Origin: Pseudorhodobacter sp.
GTDB taxonomy: Bacteria; Pseudomonadota; Alphaproteobacteria; Rhodobacterales; Rhodobacteraceae
DNA length: 35,045 nt
NCBI GenBank assembly: GCA_029254215.1
Contig: JAQWYA010000116.1
Location: forward strand, 1-35,045
Direction of reading: 5' to 3'
The notes under the pieces were generated by a model. That model saw nothing but the letters and a program-made list of their open reading frames with translations. It did no database searches and was not told where the DNA came from. This document shows positions 8 through 7,158 of this stretch, piece after piece (within the stretch, counting starts at the first letter, position 1; every line of letters begins with the position of its first letter). Position numbers and translations under genes: made by a program.

Positions 8-1438
8 TCATCCTGCTGTGACATGGGCAATCTCCTTTCCCGATACGGCAGGAAGCGGCTGCTGTTCCGTTGCCTTTGCGATGATTTCTTCCGGGTCGAG
101 GATCAAAGCGATCTTGCCATCGCCCATGATCGTTGCGGCCGCGATACCGTCGATATGGCCGTAGTTTTCCTCCAGCCCTTTGATAACGACCTGCCGCTGG
201 TCGGTAATATGGTCAACGGCAAGCGCCCATTTCCGTTGGGCTTCCGTTTCAACCAACAGCAGCACCCGGTCGATCAGCGGCGATCCGTTTGCCCCGGCGC
301 CAAAATTCTCTGCCAGATCAATGACGGGGATGTAGGTGCCGCGCAGATTGACGACTTGGCCAGTGACGCCAAGTTGCTGAATTTCAGTCGCGCGGGGTCG
401 AAGCGTTTCGACGATGGCCGTGATCGGTACAACCATGGTTTGCCCCGCCACTTCCACCACCATTCCGTCCAGCACAGCAAGCGTCAGCGGCAAGCTGATT
501 GAGATTGTGGTTCCGAGGCCGAGAGCCGATTGGATGGACAGTTTGCCCCCCAGCCTTTGGACGGATCTTTTGACGACATCCATGCCCACGCCCCGGCCTG
601 AGAGTTCGGAAACCCGTTCGGCGGTCGAAAAACCCGGCAGAAACAGCAGACCGTCAATTTCTGACGTGCTCAACTCGGCCTCCGCGGCGATCAGCCCCTT
701 TGCGATGGCAATGCTGCGAACCTTTGCCCGGTTCAATCCCGCCCCATCGTCGGATATCTGGATCACGACCCGGCCCGAGCGATGTGCGGCCGACAGCCGG
801 ATTGTCCCCGTTTCGGGTTTTCCCACCTGCAGACGATCTTCGGCGGTCTCGATCCCGTGGTCGATCGCATTGCGCAGAATATGCGTCAACGGGTCCGAAA
901 GCTGCTCAATGACGGTTTTATCAACCTCGGTAGCGTCGCCTTCTGTGACAAGTCGGGCGGATTTCCCTGCGCGATCAGAGGCTTCCCGCAAAATCCGCGA
1001 CATCCGCTGGAACAGCGGCTTGATCGGCTGCGCCCTGATCGCCATCACGCTTTCCTGAATGTCGCGCGACAGGTTGCGAAACTCATCAAGGCCGGTCGCC
1101 AGTTCTGAGCGCAGCGGTTCTCCGGGCACAAGCAGGCATTGCGAAAGCATGGCTTGATTGATGACCAATTCCCCGACGAGGTTGATCAAACGGTCCACCC
1201 TTTCCAGATCAACCCGAACGGTGGCTTTGGGTTGCGGGGGCGGGGCGTCGTTCTTTGACGGATCCTGCAGGGAGGCTTGTTCAGGCGCTCTTAATTCCAC
1301 GGTGGGCTGAAGGGCTTCGGGCGAGATCGGCTCGGACGGGGGCCGGTCTGCGTGAATGGTGTTGATTTGCAAATCGCACAGACCTTCGACAAACTCGAAG
1401 ACTTCGTCGATCACATGAGCGGGTTCGGTTGTTTCCAA
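8..1438 (-). CDS. cheA: CheA C-terminal fragment (dimerisation, kinase and CheW-like domains)
   Basis: This is the second part of cheA, in the same frame as the Hpt fragment. The first usable start downstream of the TAA is a TTG at 1438, giving 476 residues, but no good Shine-Dalgarno precedes it. Coding similarity clearly begins earlier, directly after the stop at 1577. The kinase motifs are intact: N box with HILRNAIDHGIE, G1 with ISDDGAGL, G2 with GRGVGMDVV, then GLGTTISISLPLT, followed by a CheW-like P5 that would dock the receptor array. If translated alone it would be an ATP-binding kinase lacking its own phosphotransfer His. Expression depends on re-initiation or readthrough. Confidence 0.6.
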   Translation of the reverse strand: METTEPAHVIDEVFEFVEGLCDLQINTIHADRPPSEPISPEALQPTVELRAPEQASLQDPSKNDAPPPQPKATVRVDLERVDRLINLVGELVINQAMLSQCLLVPGEPLRSELATGLDEFRNLSRDIQESVMAIRAQPIKPLFQRMSRILREASDRAGKSARLVTEGDATEVDKTVIEQLSDPLTHILRNAIDHGIETAEDRLQVGKPETGTIRLSAAHRSGRVVIQISDDGAGLNRAKVRSIAIAKGLIAAEAELSTSEIDGLLFLPGFSTAERVSELSGRGVGMDVVKRSVQRLGGKLSIQSALGLGTTISISLPLTLAVLDGMVVEVAGQTMVVPITAIVETLRPRATEIQQLGVTGQVVNLRGTYIPVIDLAENFGAGANGSPLIDRVLLLVETEAQRKWALAVDHITDQRQVVIKGLEENYGHIDGIAAATIMGDGKIALILDPEEIIAKATEQQPLPAVSGKEIAHVTAG

Positions 1439-1576
1439 TCGAAGCGACCAGCCGAGGTAACTTTCCTCCCAATCCAGACTGTCAAAATCGGGCAGGGCAG
1501 CGTGATCGAGAGTGATTGAAAGCGTTCCAAACTCGGTCAGGGCGCGAAACAGGATCGCAGGATCATGACCCAGCGC

Positions 1577-2101
1577 TTAGAGGCGGCGGCTGGGGCGAAA
1601 GCCGATCTCATAGCCGAGGATGGGGCCGCTCCCCAGGTCCAACTCAAAGTCCAACGCCATCGGTTTGAAACCGAACAGGCTACCCGTGTCTTCCGCCAGC
1701 GTGGCGGGCTGCGTCAAGCTATCCAACCCGTCGATAATCGCTTGGTTGTGACCGGATGCAAGGCTGCTGCCGGTTCTGGCCGCCAAGGTCAAATCCGTCA
1801 GGTGATCCCCAGCCCTTAGCAGGATTTGCAGAGCGCTTTTGTCGGGGATCAGGCTTCCGGAGCGGAGCGCGTCCAGAACAGTCTCAAAACGGTGAGCGAA
1901 TTGAACCAACGCGTCCAGCGCAAAGGCACCAGCCCCGCCCTTGATCGAATGAACCGCGCGAAAGACGGCATTGACCAGTTCAGCGTCCTTCAGACCGGCT
2001 TCAAAGTCAGCCTCCATCTGGCGCAGGCCCTCGGCCATGCCTTCCAGCAGGTCTTCACATTCCTGAAAGAACGTATCCCTGAGGTCGCCATGCGCTTTCA
2101 T
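1577..2101 (-). CDS. cheA: CheA N-terminal fragment (Hpt/P1 domain)
   Basis: This is the translatable first part of the interrupted cheA, 174 residues. The ATG at 2101 has GAGG about 6 nt upstream. Residues 1-110 form a helical Hpt domain with the phosphorylatable His51 in the HSIKGGAGAF motif. The rest is a linker and the first strand of the next domain, cut at GYEIGFRPSRRL. Isolated P1 domains of CheA can be phosphorylated in trans by the kinase core in other bacteria, so this piece could remain a phosphodonor if the kinase core is also made. This was not shown here. Confidence 0.6.
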   Translation of the reverse strand: MKAHGDLRDTFFQECEDLLEGMAEGLRQMEADFEAGLKDAELVNAVFRAVHSIKGGAGAFALDALVQFAHRFETVLDALRSGSLIPDKSALQILLRAGDHLTDLTLAARTGSSLASGHNQAIIDGLDSLTQPATLAEDTGSLFGFKPMALDFELDLGSGPILGYEIGFRPSRRL

Positions 2102-2108
2102 TCTGACC

Positions 2109-2477
2109 TCACATCACCGAGACGCGTTTGATCGCAGAGACAAGCCTGTCCCCATCAAACGGCTTCACGATCCAGGCCGTCGCACCGGCTGCGCGGGCTT
2201 TTTCCTTAAGGTCCTGCGCGCTTTCTGTGGTCAGAACAAGGATTGGAAGGGCCGTCTTTTTGATGTTTTTCCGAACCGCTGTTATGAACTCAAAACCATT
2301 CATGCGGGGCATATTGATATCAGTGATGACAACATCTGGCGAAAAGACCCGTACCCTGTCGAGCCCATCCAACCCATCAACGGCGAGATCAACAACAAAA
2401 CCCGCGCTCGTTAAAGCTTCGCGCAGCATCTCGCGGATCGTCCGTGAATCGTCAATTGCAAGGATTTTGACGCTCAT
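2109..2477 (-). CDS. cheY: Chemotaxis response regulator CheY
   Basis: A single receiver domain of 122 residues and nothing else, which is the CheY plan. It takes phosphate from CheA and would act on the flagellar motor or serve as a phosphate sink. Key residues are present: the acidic pair Asp9-Asp10, phospho-acceptor Asp53 (VVITDINMP), the switch Thr83 and Lys105 (IVKPF). The ATG start at 2477 has GAAGGGG 7 nt upstream, inside the end of the STAS gene, and only 2 nt separate the two genes. It sits between the STAS gene and cheA in one operon. Confidence 0.95.
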   Translation of the reverse strand: MSVKILAIDDSRTIREMLREALTSAGFVVDLAVDGLDGLDRVRVFSPDVVITDINMPRMNGFEFITAVRKNIKKTALPILVLTTESAQDLKEKARAAGATAWIVKPFDGDRLVSAIKRVSVM

Positions 2478-2479
2478 CC

Positions 2480-2815
2480 TTAAACCCCTTCTTTCAAGCT
2501 GTTCAGTGATAAGCCAAGTCGGCTCAGCCCTTCGATGAAACCGTCTGACGGATGGACGATTTCAAAGGGAAGTCCTGCCCTTGCCCAGCGCATTCTGGCA
2601 GACAGCAGAATTTGCAGGGCAAGGGCCCCAAGGTGCCGAACAGATTGAGTGTCAACGCAGACCGGGTGTGCCTCTTGCCTCCGCAGCGCTTCATGCAAAT
2701 GACGGCAAGCGTCAAAGTCCACCACTGATGGAAGGGTGATCGTTTTGTGGATGGTCTTGCTGAGGGCCGGGGGCTGCGCGCCGGAAGAAGCGGTGTCGGA
2801 AAGGGGACTAGTCAA
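2480..2815 (-). CDS. STAS-domain protein of the chemotaxis operon
   Basis: A 111-residue protein with a STAS fold: strands around KTITLPSVVDF and HPVCVDTQSVRHLG, followed by the helix ALALQILLSARMRWARAG. STAS proteins are anti-sigma-antagonist-like binding modules, and small ones are often found beside cheY/cheA in alphaproteobacteria, where their role is unclear. The residue usually phosphorylated in SpoIIAA-type proteins (Ser in the D-S-S/T-G motif) is not obvious, since the equivalent stretch reads DTQSVRHLG. The first in-frame start is a TTG at 2815 overlapping the cheD stop by 8 nt, with GGAG about 11 nt upstream. Translational coupling to cheD is likely. Confidence 0.8.
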   Translation of the reverse strand: MTSPLSDTASSGAQPPALSKTIHKTITLPSVVDFDACRHLHEALRRQEAHPVCVDTQSVRHLGALALQILLSARMRWARAGLPFEIVHPSDGFIEGLSRLGLSLNSLKEGV

Positions 2816-3386
2816 AAAAGGTTACTCCATCTTGCGGGTTGCGGATGTCGGCCGTTGCCGTTTGCCCACGTCTGGGAATTGAAGCGACCGCTTCGTCGGA
2901 GAGTTCCTGCGCGATGAAGAGTTGCTGGGCTTTGCCGATCGTCGGCCAATATCGAACCCGCCGGGCCTGTGTGCCGCCCAAGCTTCTTCCGACAAGCTTG
3001 ATGCTTTCTGTCTCGAGGAATTTCAGGGCAAACTCGCCGTTGGCCTGTCCTATTTTTCCAAGGCCTCCGTGCATGCCTGCCCCACCAAAGAGCTTTGCTT
3101 CGAGCCGCTGACGTTTCGCCCCGATCTTAAGCAATTCATTTATCAGCAGCTCCATGGCATGCAGTCCGTATCGCACTTTTCCAAAACTCAAATCCTCACC
3201 ATCAGGCAAAAGAAAATGGTTCATCCCGCCCACTCGGGCGATGGGATCTGTCAGGCAGGTACAAACACATGAGCCAAGGATCGTCGTCAGGACGATCTCA
3301 GGGTCTCCAGTCGCTTCATAGGCGCCCTGAACGACGTGGATTTGCCTGAAATGAGTGACATCGGAGTTTTCGATTTCCGGGATCAC
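2808..3386 (-). CDS. cheD: Chemoreceptor glutamine deamidase CheD
   Basis: CheD deamidates specific glutamines of chemoreceptors and in some species interacts with CheC/CheY. The catalytic Cys lies in TILGSCVCTC and the catalytic His in GGMNHFLLP, about 17 residues later, as in the family. The strand FGKVRYGLHAMELLINEL and the motif KLFGGAGM are also typical. The start is uncertain: a TTG at 3395 and a GTG at 3386 are both in frame, and a TGA lies two codons above the TTG. I prefer GTG 3386 because it overlaps the stop of a small upstream ORF as GTGA. The product is then about 192 residues (195 from the TTG). Confidence 0.92.
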   Translation of the reverse strand: MIPEIENSDVTHFRQIHVVQGAYEATGDPEIVLTTILGSCVCTCLTDPIARVGGMNHFLLPDGEDLSFGKVRYGLHAMELLINELLKIGAKRQRLEAKLFGGAGMHGGLGKIGQANGEFALKFLETESIKLVGRSLGGTQARRVRYWPTIGKAQQLFIAQELSDEAVASIPRRGQTATADIRNPQDGVTFFD

Positions 3387-3523
3387 CTTTTGCAACTTTC
3401 AAGGCCTCGTGGCTTTGGGCAGATCTGCCAAGGACGTTGGACGGGTTTGGGATGCGACGCGGAGATTGCAACCGATCCAGACGATTTTGCCTTTAGGGTT
3501 TTGACGGGCCAGCAGGCGGTCAT
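3383..3523 (-). CDS. Possible small protein (46 aa) between chemoreceptor and cheD
   Basis: The gap between the chemoreceptor and cheD holds an ORF of 46 codons beginning MTACWPVKTLK and ending LESCKR. Its ATG is preceded by GGGAGGAG with an 8-nt spacer, the best Shine-Dalgarno of the cluster. Its stop overlaps the cheD GTG as GTGA, which favours translational coupling. Against it, codon use is unlike that of the neighbours (cta, tct, cga, agg). The cheD frame over the same stretch, with no start codon, encodes a more protein-like sequence (KIVWIGCNLRVASQTRP) ending in TGA just before cheD. The stretch may therefore be a short coupling leader or a frameshifted small gene. I do not recognise the product. 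Confidence 0.35.
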   Translation of the reverse strand: MTACWPVKTLKAKSSGSVAISASHPKPVQRPWQICPKPRGLESCKR

Positions 3524-3525
3524 CT

Positions 3526-6105
3526 TCAAAACTCCTCCCAGCCGGTCATTTTCGGATCAGTGGCGCGCCGAAAGAAGGGCTGACCAACTGCGGCGGGCAG
3601 ATCGGCCTCTGCCAGGGCTCCGGGTTTATCGGTCGCGCGACGTGCTTTGAAGCTGACGACCTGATCTGTGGTTGAAGCCAAGGCTGGGGATGCGGAAATC
3701 TGGAAGTAAGAGATCGCCTGGACAAGGGACGCAGCTTCAGCCGTGAGGGACTCGCTGGCGGCCGTGGTTTCTTCCAGCCGCGCGGCGTTCTGTTGCGTCG
3801 CTTGATCCAGATCGGTGACGGCTGCATTTATTTCTGCAAGCCCTAGGGATTGTTGTCGCGCTGATTGTGCGATGTTTGAGACGAGTGTCGAGATATGCGA
3901 AACCGACCCTACGATTTCTTGCAATGCGGCCCCTGTTCTTCCCACAAAATCGACACCGCGTTTCACATGGGCCGAGCTGTTTGCGATCAAAGCGTTGATC
4001 TCTCGGGCTGCGTCGGAAGACCGCTGTGCGAGGGCCCGGACTTCTGAGGCGACCACTGCAAATCCTCGGCCCGCATCGCCAGCACGGGCGGCTTCTACAC
4101 CCGCATTGAGCGCAAGCAGATTGGTTTGAAAGGCAATATCATCAATGACTTTGATGATGGCGGTAATCTTTTCGGAACTGGCTGAGATCAAGTCCATGGC
4201 CGATACGGTCTCCACGATCACGTGGCCGCTTTGCTCCGCGTTGATCTTGGCCTCCGCAACGGCCTTATCCGCCGTTGCGGCGCCGTCTGAGGCGGATTTG
4301 ACCGAATGGGTCAATTCTCCAAGGGCTGCGGCAGTCTGTTCGAGGGTGGCCGCGGTGTTTTCGGTGCGACGTGACAAACCATCTGCGGTGGAGCTGATAT
4401 CGCGGGCCTCATTGCTGATGCTTTGGGCGTTCAACTGCACCTCGCGCATCATTTTTGAAAGCGTTTCCAAGGTATTATTATAATCTTGCCGAACTTCCTC
4501 ATATTGGCCTTGAAATGGGATCTCGATGCGGCCGGTCAGATCACCCTTGCTGAGTTGGCGAAGGCCGATGCGAAGGGAGTCCACCACTTTCGATTGTTGC
4601 GCTTGTTGTTCGGCGCGTTCTTTGCGGGCTTGTTCCAATTCCAGTTCGGCCTCGGTCACATCTTTGCCGATCAGCAAAAGGCGAAAGGGTTTTCCCGCAT
4701 GGTCCCGGATTGTGCTGAGAGCACAGTCTAGGATCCGGGTGCCGTTGCCCGTGCTGTGAAATATGATCTTCCCTTGATAGTTTCCTTCGTTCAGCACCTG
4801 TTCGACCAAACGATCCTTGCCGGTGATGGCATGTGACAAAAGGCTGTCTTTCGCACGCTCGCCGTTTGGCATGTGTTGCGTGCCGAGCAGCGCTTTGAAT
4901 CGTTCATTTGCCTCAAGCAGACGCCCTTGCGTGTCGAATTGTGCGGTCGCTTGCCCCGCGTCGATGGCAGAAAGCACAGCGGTATTCAGCCACTGAACGG
5001 TCACATCCGTCCATTCGATCGCATAGCCGAGGATGGCGCCCGAGGCGTCGGTGATGCGGCGGATAGCAAGGGTCACCCGCGTGTTGCCAAGCTTCAGGGT
5101 TTCAATATGCGTTCCGTCCGCAGATTGGGCGAGGGCGCTGCGCAAATGCGCTTGGCCGTCCCCCAGAAAGCCCAAATCCGACCCAATGATCGCTTCAAGA
5201 TCGAAAGTGGCCAGATTGCTCCGCAGTTCAGGGGAAAGCTGGGTCAGAAGTTCCCTCATGCTGCCATTCAGATCGTGCACCCGAAAGCCAGAGTCCAGAA
5301 GCATTATCGCCGCCGAGGCACCCGTCAAAGCGGCGCTCTTGTAGGCGTTCTCGGCCTTTGCCGCGTCGCCGCTTTCCAGATCAATCCGCATTTGTTCAAG
5401 CGCAAGCGCCATCTGACCGATCTCATCCCTGCGATGTTGGCCCGGTATGCTTTGCGCATAGTCGCGCGCCCCAAGACGGAGCATGGCACCTGCGATCTGG
5501 TTCATTGGGCGCGACATAAGTTGTCGAAAGAAGAGGAGGGCTGCCAGAAGGGACAAGGCAAAGATTGCAAAGGACAGCAGGATGTTGCTTTGGAGTTCCG
5601 ATAAGAGCAACGCGTCTTGTGCCTGCGTATTCCAACCGAGCGCAACGACGCCGAGGACGTCCCCGGTGCCCGCATTGATCACGGGTTCTGCAATCAGCAG
5701 ACCATTCTCGGAGCTTTGACGGATGCCTGTGGACAGTGCGCCTTGTGCCAGAGTCAGGAGTTCTGGATCGCCCTTGCTGAGGGAGGTTGCCTGCGCCAGA
5801 AACTGACCCTGCCCATCCAGCGCGAAAGCGGCATGAACCTGGCCGTTAGCATCGGTTTGGATCCCGTCGAACAGCGCGACGAGGGCGTCACCCTTCCCGA
5901 AACGCACTGCGCCATAGCTTTGTTCTGCCGTCAATTCGGTGACAATCAATGCCTTTGAGGCCGCGAGTTCGGCCACCAGCAGAACCTTGTTTTGATAGGT
6001 CATCGTTGTCAGGACGCCGACAACCAATCCAATGCAAACAACGATAACCCCGCCAAACTTAAGGATTATTGAACGGTGAAGAGGTGTTTTAAGCGCTTCG
6101 CTCAT
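3526..6105 (-). CDS. Methyl-accepting chemotaxis protein with PAS regions and CheR-tether C-terminus
   Basis: An 859-residue transmembrane chemoreceptor. It has TM1 at about 13-35, a periplasmic sensor of about 135 residues, TM2 at about 174-193 and a HAMP at about 194-246. Two PAS-like regions follow (about 255-370 and 375-490), then a second HAMP-like stretch (505-560) and the MA signalling coiled coil. The hairpin tip is canonical ([20 protein letters not shown], about 657-676). The last five residues, GWEEF, match the x-[HFYW]-x2-[HFYW] tether used by CheR and CheB. It is followed by cheD and preceded by a secreted sensor-like gene. The ligand is unknown, and the PAS regions suggest that cytoplasmic cues may also be sensed. 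Confidence 0.95.
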
Positions 6106-6159: not shown

Positions 6160-6738
6160 TCAGAACGCCTCGGCGTTCAGCCCAAGGGTCATCGCCCCGA
6201 TTGGATAATGTGTGATGGGGTCAAGGATCACGAAAGACACCTGTGACAGGTACATCTGCGTGCTTTCATCAAACTCAATCTCGCCGACATGGACGCTGCC
6301 GGAGCCGAGCGCGAAGGTTTTGAGAAATTTGTCTTCGTCGCCTTGCCAGTAATCTGAGGTGACGGCACTTGCGGCGACATTCAGGCCACGCGCATCCATC
6401 ACAAAAGCCTCCACCACCTGGCCTTGGGTTTCTGCGACGCGTGCGCCAAGAAGGGCGGAGGCGGGCTGGTCAAGAACGGTCGAAATCGTTGGCGTTTCCG
6501 CTGTCCCAACCTCCGACCGCCAAAGGGCATCCATCGCAAGGATCTGATCTTCCGTATAGGCCTTCGTGGTTTCGTTCTGGGCCTTGACTGTCTGAACGAT
6601 CAAAGGGTCCGCCAGCCACTCCGCCGCCGTTTTCAAAGCAAAGATCTTCATCGCCTGTTCGGTTTCCATCGCGAAGGCCGAAGAGGCCGCCAGAGTGGCC
6701 AGAAGGCAGGCCGCCGGGGCCAAGGCTGCAACTTTCAT
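6160..6738 (-). CDS. Secreted PDC/Cache-like sensor protein, first gene of the chemotaxis operon
   Basis: A protein of about 192 residues with an Sec signal peptide (MKVAALAPAACLLATLAASSAFA, written here only as start and end: MKVAALAP to SSAFA) and no later membrane span. The ATG at 6738 has GGAAAGGA 7 nt upstream, so I prefer it to a TTG 8 codons earlier. The mature part (ALLGARVAETQGQVVEAFVMDARG, seen here as an alternating strand pattern, then DYWQGDEDKF and PIGAMTLGLN) resembles PDC/Cache ligand-binding folds in which short sensor domains end in an IG-x-hydrophobic strand. The gene lies 54 nt before the chemoreceptor on the same strand. It could be a periplasmic ligand-binding partner of that receptor. 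Function is inferred from fold-like pattern and context only. Confidence 0.7.
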   Translation of the reverse strand: MKVAALAPAACLLATLAASSAFAMETEQAMKIFALKTAAEWLADPLIVQTVKAQNETTKAYTEDQILAMDALWRSEVGTAETPTISTVLDQPASALLGARVAETQGQVVEAFVMDARGLNVAASAVTSDYWQGDEDKFLKTFALGSGSVHVGEIEFDESTQMYLSQVSFVILDPITHYPIGAMTLGLNAEAF

Positions 6739-7158
6739 TTCAATGTCCTTTCCAAACGCCAAAGCCGGTTGCTCTGCGCTTATCTGTAGGGGGCGGTGGT
6801 TTAAGAAACCGTGAAGCTCTTCGGATCAGGTCTGGCGCGGAGGGAGCTTGGCCCGCGGCGCGCAAATTCACGGAAGCGCCACCCGAGACGGACAGAAGAT
6901 CATTCAAGAACAATGGATAAGGCAGAGATTTGGGCGGGCACGGCTTGCGGCTACCAATGCGGCGCTAAGGAGTTTCGCGCGGGCCTCTTTCGGCGGCGCC
7001 AAGTTTGTAAAATTGATCCGATCCCCCCTCAGTACCGATCCGAATCGCCCCCTTTCCGGCGCTGGGCTGTGCTTCCAGTCTTGACAGGATCGGTCAAAAC
7101 GCCCCCCATGGCGCCGGGTCGCACAGATCCGCGCAACCTTGTCCAGAAGGAGGATGTC
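6739..7158. other. 420-bp intergenic region between the chemotaxis operon and the SDR/FAH operon
   Basis: No convincing gene is seen in this stretch between two divergent operons. It should hold both promoters. Visible elements are a small palindrome GGTTT-AAG-AAACC (6798-6810) upstream of the minus-strand sensor gene, a TTGAC-N7-GTCAA dyad (7081-7097) upstream of the SDR gene, and the SDR ribosome site AAGGAGG at 7147-7153. I could not assign a clear sigma-70 or sigma-28 promoter pair for either direction. Confidence 0.5.
7081..7097. promoter_or_regulatory. Candidate operator dyad TTGAC-N7-GTCAA
   Basis: Half-sites TTGAC (7081-7085) and GTCAA (7093-7097) form an inverted repeat with a 7-nt spacer, 62 nt before the SDR start. 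The size fits a GntR/LacI-type operator, which often controls sugar acid operons, but no regulator gene lies next to it here. The first half also reads TTGACA, but no -10 follows at proper distance. Confidence 0.3.

Follow-up and report, generated by a model that had tools for sequence, protein, structure and literature searches.

The window analysed here, a stretch of 35,045 nucleotides from a Pseudorhodobacter sp. (positions 1 to 35,045 of contig JAQWYA010000116.1, assembly GCA_029254215.1), begins with part of a chemotaxis operon that is read from the minus strand. According to the list of open reading frames and to Pfam, this part includes a chemoreceptor with HAMP, PAS and MCPsignal domains (3526..6105), cheD (2808..3395), a gene for a STAS-domain protein (2480..2815) and a response regulator gene, cheY (2109..2477), all of them open, followed by cheA. 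The contig end (1..119) is shared, as a 119-base overlap that covers the last 36 codons of cheA, with a second contig, C161, which carries the operon on with cheW, cheR and a second cheY. The order of the operon is receptor, CheD, STAS protein, CheY, CheA and, on C161, CheW, CheR and the second CheY; apart from cheA, the che genes in the window and on C161 are open.

The cheA gene is interrupted by a nonsense codon. Read directly from the sequence, the plus strand has TTA at positions 1577-1579, i.e., TAA on the minus strand, and this codon is in frame with an upstream ORF of 174 amino acids that starts with ATG (2101-1577), as well as with a downstream open frame of 522 codons plus a stop (1576-8). 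In Pfam searches the 5' frame (1577..2101) matched Hpt (E 5.5e-17), and the 3' frame (8..1576) matched H-kinase_dim (E 1.6e-19), HATPase_c (E 3.7e-18) and CheW (E 6.6e-27). These domains keep the order of a CheA protein and a single frame with one stop inside; the two pieces are one CheA frame, as the original prediction had proposed, and a frameshift or a gene fusion at the junction was ruled out, given that both parts share the same frame. For annotation, this means that the two frames should be described as one interrupted gene rather than as two genes, one for an Hpt protein and one for a kinase. From the alignment with other CheA proteins and a motif search, the 5' part includes the Hpt domain (P1) with an HSIKG motif and the start of a P2-like conserved stretch, while the 3' part includes the rest of this stretch, the dimerization (P3), ATPase (P4) and CheW-like (P5) domains, and the ATP-site motifs; the motif of the phospho-acceptor histidine and those of the ATP site were located using what we take to be their usual definitions. 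The stop had been placed between the Hpt and the kinase domains, which is correct as far as the domains are concerned, but it has to be refined, as the codon lies inside the P2-like stretch that is conserved in the relatives. We infer from its position that this stretch is the P2 domain, for which Pfam gave no match in the cheA frames.

The residue expected at this site was deduced from other CheA proteins. A CheA match was present in 109 loci; the alignment took in the 48 with scores above 480 bits, and the remaining 61 did not enter the count. The 48 relatives were drawn from two collections that overlap, and some of them are not independent of each other. In one row the region of the stop column is missing, due to a contig end; in the other 47, the column is mostly aromatic, with Tyr in 31, Phe in 11, Leu in 4 and Asn in 1, and the codons used are TAT (17), TAC (14), TTC (6), TTT (5), CTG (2), CTA (1), CTC (1) and AAT (1). 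The TAA codon is one base away from the commonest of these, which agrees with the earlier proposal of a nonsense change at a conserved position. The surrounding stretch is conserved in the relatives, often as LYxxGH[DE]P. A conserved stop followed directly by a start codon, the pattern in close relatives that had been put forward as contrary to this proposal, was also sought; none of the 47 relatives has a stop at this column, and no split common to the relatives was found. The remainder of CheA is well kept, with two mild departures at the 149 columns that are at least 95% conserved (147/149 kept), in a range of 0 to 15 departures for the relatives. Judged by its nearest CheA relatives, the protein is of the Rhodobacter/Cereibacter kind. 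Plasmid records gave no near relative; the 102 matches all have 60-80% identity, and none covers 80% of the query.

Some of the CheA matches are themselves incomplete. One of them (G014:C47:79434-80297, 62% identity over query positions 224-511) lies in an open frame no longer than 297 codons, and it is either another short or broken CheA or the result of an assembly break. Four others, G094:C15, G225:C2, G285:C65 and G056:C36, show one stop inside the matched stretch; the first of these (locus L023) has Tyr at the column of the window's cheA stop, its own stop being elsewhere.

The genome, a draft assembly in 242 contigs rated 98.83% complete, was searched for other chemotaxis genes. This search yielded a single CheA, an additional CheW protein, a complete receptor, which is that of the window and the only full-length MCPsignal match, and one truncated receptor-like ORF. 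A CheB methylesterase domain was not found in the genome, though it encodes CheR, CheD and a receptor; the control search for this domain matched in 6 of 14 genomes. The eight congeners lack a CheA of this type, five of them giving matches that are weak (E about 1e-4, identity 29-41%) and three none, and none of the eight has an MCP signalling domain. Of nine genomes in the genus, the present one alone yielded either such a CheA or a chemoreceptor, a distribution that bears on the gain and loss of taxis in swimming lineages. In a literature search made by subject and not by organism name, no report among the best-ranked papers was recognised as dealing with this locus.

Another aspect that was considered is whether the kinase half could be translated from a start of its own. 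There is no ATG, GTG or TTG in frame within the 138 bases that follow the cheA TAA; the first such codon is a TTG 138 bases downstream (1436..1438, minus strand), preceded by a Shine-Dalgarno match of 3 bases, and the TTG further on, at 1372, has one of 4 bases. For comparison, the match is 4 or 5 bases long at four of the five gene starts that the operon has in the window, and 3 bases long at the fifth. Low-level expression of the kinase half is conceivable because a product begun at either TTG (1438 or 1372) would retain P3, P4 and P5, but nothing that was found supports it.

A second in-frame stop was detected in a gene of the flagellar motor. A search of the genome gave a single fliG, located on contig C92 (L145:6303-7376, plus strand) in the same gene neighbourhood as in the congener G007, and it carries an in-frame TAA at L145:6828-6830. 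This stop lies within the middle domain of FliG, so that FliG_N and half of FliG_M precede it and FliG_C follows. All eight congeners have Arg at this site and open fliG frames of 360-383 codons. A match was obtained in 121 of 149 genomes; among the 37 relatives listed, i.e., the eight congeners and 29 other genomes, the residue is Arg in 27, Lys in 7, and Asp, Gln and Leu in one each. The TAA is at least two base changes away from every codon seen in these 37 relatives, and an intermediate is therefore needed to reach it. The dN of fliG between the present genome and the eight congeners is 0.24-0.35, versus 0.10-0.20 for five pairs of congeners, and it is higher in both halves of the gene. 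The dN/dS ratio is well below 1 in both halves with no clear relaxation, and no firm conclusion on relaxed selection follows from these values because dS is near saturation. Fourteen other flagellar genes, a sample that represents less than half of a typical flagellar cluster, are all open: those for FliK, FlgD, flagellin, FlaF, FlbT, a DUF1217 protein, FliI, a short rod protein, FliE, FlgF, FlgG, FlgA, FlgH and FliL. Some of these names are those that we presume to apply where Pfam was not specific.

To place both stops against the rest of the genome, a set of 841 genes, predicted in 1.2 Mb of G007, was matched to 832,680 bases (about 24%) of the present genome. A counterpart with at least 50% identity was obtained for 121 genes, with 41,485 aligned residues. 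A mid-gene stop was found in one of the 121, namely fliG, and a change of frame in none. Three other genes have a stop at query positions 4, 13 and 14, which is read as a wrong choice of start, the stop at position 4 having a well-matched right flank. One mid-gene stop in 121 genes makes frequent base errors or a recoding of UAA unlikely in what was compared. By our own arithmetic, when fliG is set aside, the absence of other mid-gene stops gives a 95% upper limit of about 3 in 41,000 codons, i.e., an expectation of at most about 0.05 stops for a gene of some 700 codons. Nine of the 121 genes were recognised as flagellar, so that, starting from cheA, the probability of the single broken gene falling in this group is about 0.07, a figure that suggests a shared cause for the cheA and fliG breaks without proving it. 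The first scans had flagged 5 of 22, 9 of 67 and 6 of 60 ORFs, and the codon filter of the last of them dropped fliG itself. Seven of the flagged ORFs were judged by eye to be antisense ORFs or over-long 5' ends; with better gene calling, in the comparison of the 121 genes, fliG and the three early stops were what was left, and genome-wide decay or error was rejected.

The explanation that we favour, and consider likely, is that the one cheA of this genome has lost its function through a genuine nonsense mutation and that, with fliG also interrupted, chemotaxis would be dead and the motor probably not built. Translation of cheA would end beyond Hpt, partway through the P2-like stretch, and the kinase half would not be made in useful amounts; CheY would then not be phosphorylated, and the one-receptor chemotaxis operon would be silent. 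The interruption of fliG, in turn, would probably prevent the cell from assembling a functional flagellar motor, and by then, or at about the same time, chemotaxis would have ceased to be under selection. That chemotaxis signalling is probably broken, as the original prediction suggested, is consistent with the single CheA found and with the poor starts available to the kinase. Because the only CheA gene and a key flagellar motor gene are both interrupted, this strain has probably lost directed swimming, by ordinary gene decay, and the two stops are probably real, recent mutations by which genes for motility and chemotaxis lost their function. A premature stop without a counterpart in the orthologues, a mark of pseudogenes formed by nonsense mutation, is what is seen in cheA (0/47). 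Against this explanation, the breaks are so far confined to two genes, and the other che genes and the 14 flagellar genes are open; the intermediate that the fliG stop needs and the lack of clear relaxation in fliG also count against it. With the operon and these flagellar genes otherwise open, the genome looks like a case of motility decay caught early. We infer the loss of function, the loss of motility, and the order and age of the mutations from the genome sequence.

Other explanations have to be weighed against this loss of function, and the likeliest of them, itself unlikely, is that 1577-1579 was misread in sequencing or misassembled, or shows a minority allele from a mixed sample, and that cheA is intact in the living strain. 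The single base that separates the stop from the commonest codons would suit an error, as would the fragmented draft of 242 contigs, one end of which overlaps the last 36 codons of this very gene; but with fliG aside there is no mid-gene stop in the 121 genes (41,485 residues), and in fliG an error would demand at least two wrong bases. A sequencing error had been offered as an option from the start, and these two results weaken it. The idea that both nonsense codons arose in culture after isolation is considerably less probable; a loss of motility in laboratory culture has been reported for Campylobacter jejuni (PMC7677240), and the remainder of cheA and fliG is well kept, but the distance of at least two steps between the fliG TAA and all codons in the 37 relatives listed fits an older history.

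The stops could also be tolerated instead of harmful. If the split kinase were functional, the cell would make the Hpt fragment as well as a fragment with P3, P4 and P5, and the free Hpt would be phosphorylated in trans by the latter. This arrangement, which we regard as improbable, is mechanistically conceivable because P2 is not essential for phosphotransfer, even if its deletion slows this step and impairs chemotaxis (PMC10782961); moreover, liberated P1 domains have been used in studies of CheA (PMC10653900), the histidine motif of Hpt and the ATP-site motifs are present, and the TTG at 1372 with its 4-base match would still yield P3-P4-P5. A natural precedent, described in PMC3591291, is the CheA3/CheA4 pair of Rhodobacter sphaeroides, separate proteins that are bound to the cluster via their P5 domains. 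The likeness is that Hpt and kinase functions would reside on separate polypeptides, provided that both pieces are made; unlike that pair, there is here one gene with one stop, no good second start, and an Hpt piece in which Pfam detects Hpt and no P5 or CheW-like domain that could bring it to the array. The stop inside a conserved stretch, its absence from all 47 relatives, the lack of a CheA of this kind in the eight congeners, and the interruption of fliG also speak against a kinase acting in trans, a possibility raised by the original prediction. Even less probable is that UAA is read through at some level to give full CheA and FliG. In its favour, the same four bases, GCGC, follow the TAA in either gene, and the sequence beyond each stop is conserved; yet the shared context is weak evidence, since the codon after the fliG site is GCN (Ala) in all 37 relatives listed, and GCG in most. 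A tRNA with a TTA anticodon, expected of a UUA suppressor, was absent from the 30 of 34 tRNA matches that were read, a set that does not include tRNA-Tyr, and the in-frame UAA in many conserved genes that a recoding requires was not seen, fliG being the only such case among the 121 genes compared, so that the readthrough once suggested for cheA is not supported. The more general proposal that CheA and FliG are both functional, as split proteins or through context-dependent readthrough of UAA, with motility gated by translation termination, is very unlikely.

The operon resembles a locus of Cereibacter johrii, from the Rhodobacter sphaeroides group (L042), in its order receptor-CheD-CheY-CheA-CheW-CheR-CheY and in the kinase part, which is 61% identical; this type of operon is presumably the one known as cheOp1 in Cereibacter. 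The two differ in that cheA is interrupted here and open in C. johrii, and in the STAS gene, for which no match was found in the C. johrii locus. Four other loci (L043, L044, L052 and L064) share only the core order CheY-CheA-CheW-CheR-CheY with the present operon. With regard to fliG, a study of Phaeobacter inhibens (PMC12363192) lists three fliG transposon insertions among immotile mutants; in that species, whose flagellar cluster comprises 36 genes, fliG is away from the main cluster, and its disruption leads to immotile cells. The difference is that in P. inhibens the gene was broken by transposons, whereas here the TAA is present in the deposited genome and its effect on motility is predicted.

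A few minor observations concern the neighbours and possible remnants of the chemotaxis genes. When 11 proteins of the window and C161 were compared with 1.2 Mb of G007, only CheD gave a match (G007:C1, approx. 243867-244268; 34% identity, E 2.5e-22), and since that genome has no CheA of this kind or MCP domain, it is possibly an orphan CheD. The truncated receptor-like ORF is located on contig C18 (L146:7042-7728, plus strand), just before a convergent ORF; its 228 residues end in a partial MCPsignal match (profile positions 29-94 of 172), by which it is classed as a truncated or degenerate chemoreceptor. In the window, the receptor gene is adjoined by a gene for a 200-residue protein (6160-6762, minus strand) that has no Pfam match and a start resembling a signal peptide, and is perhaps a periplasmic partner of the receptor.
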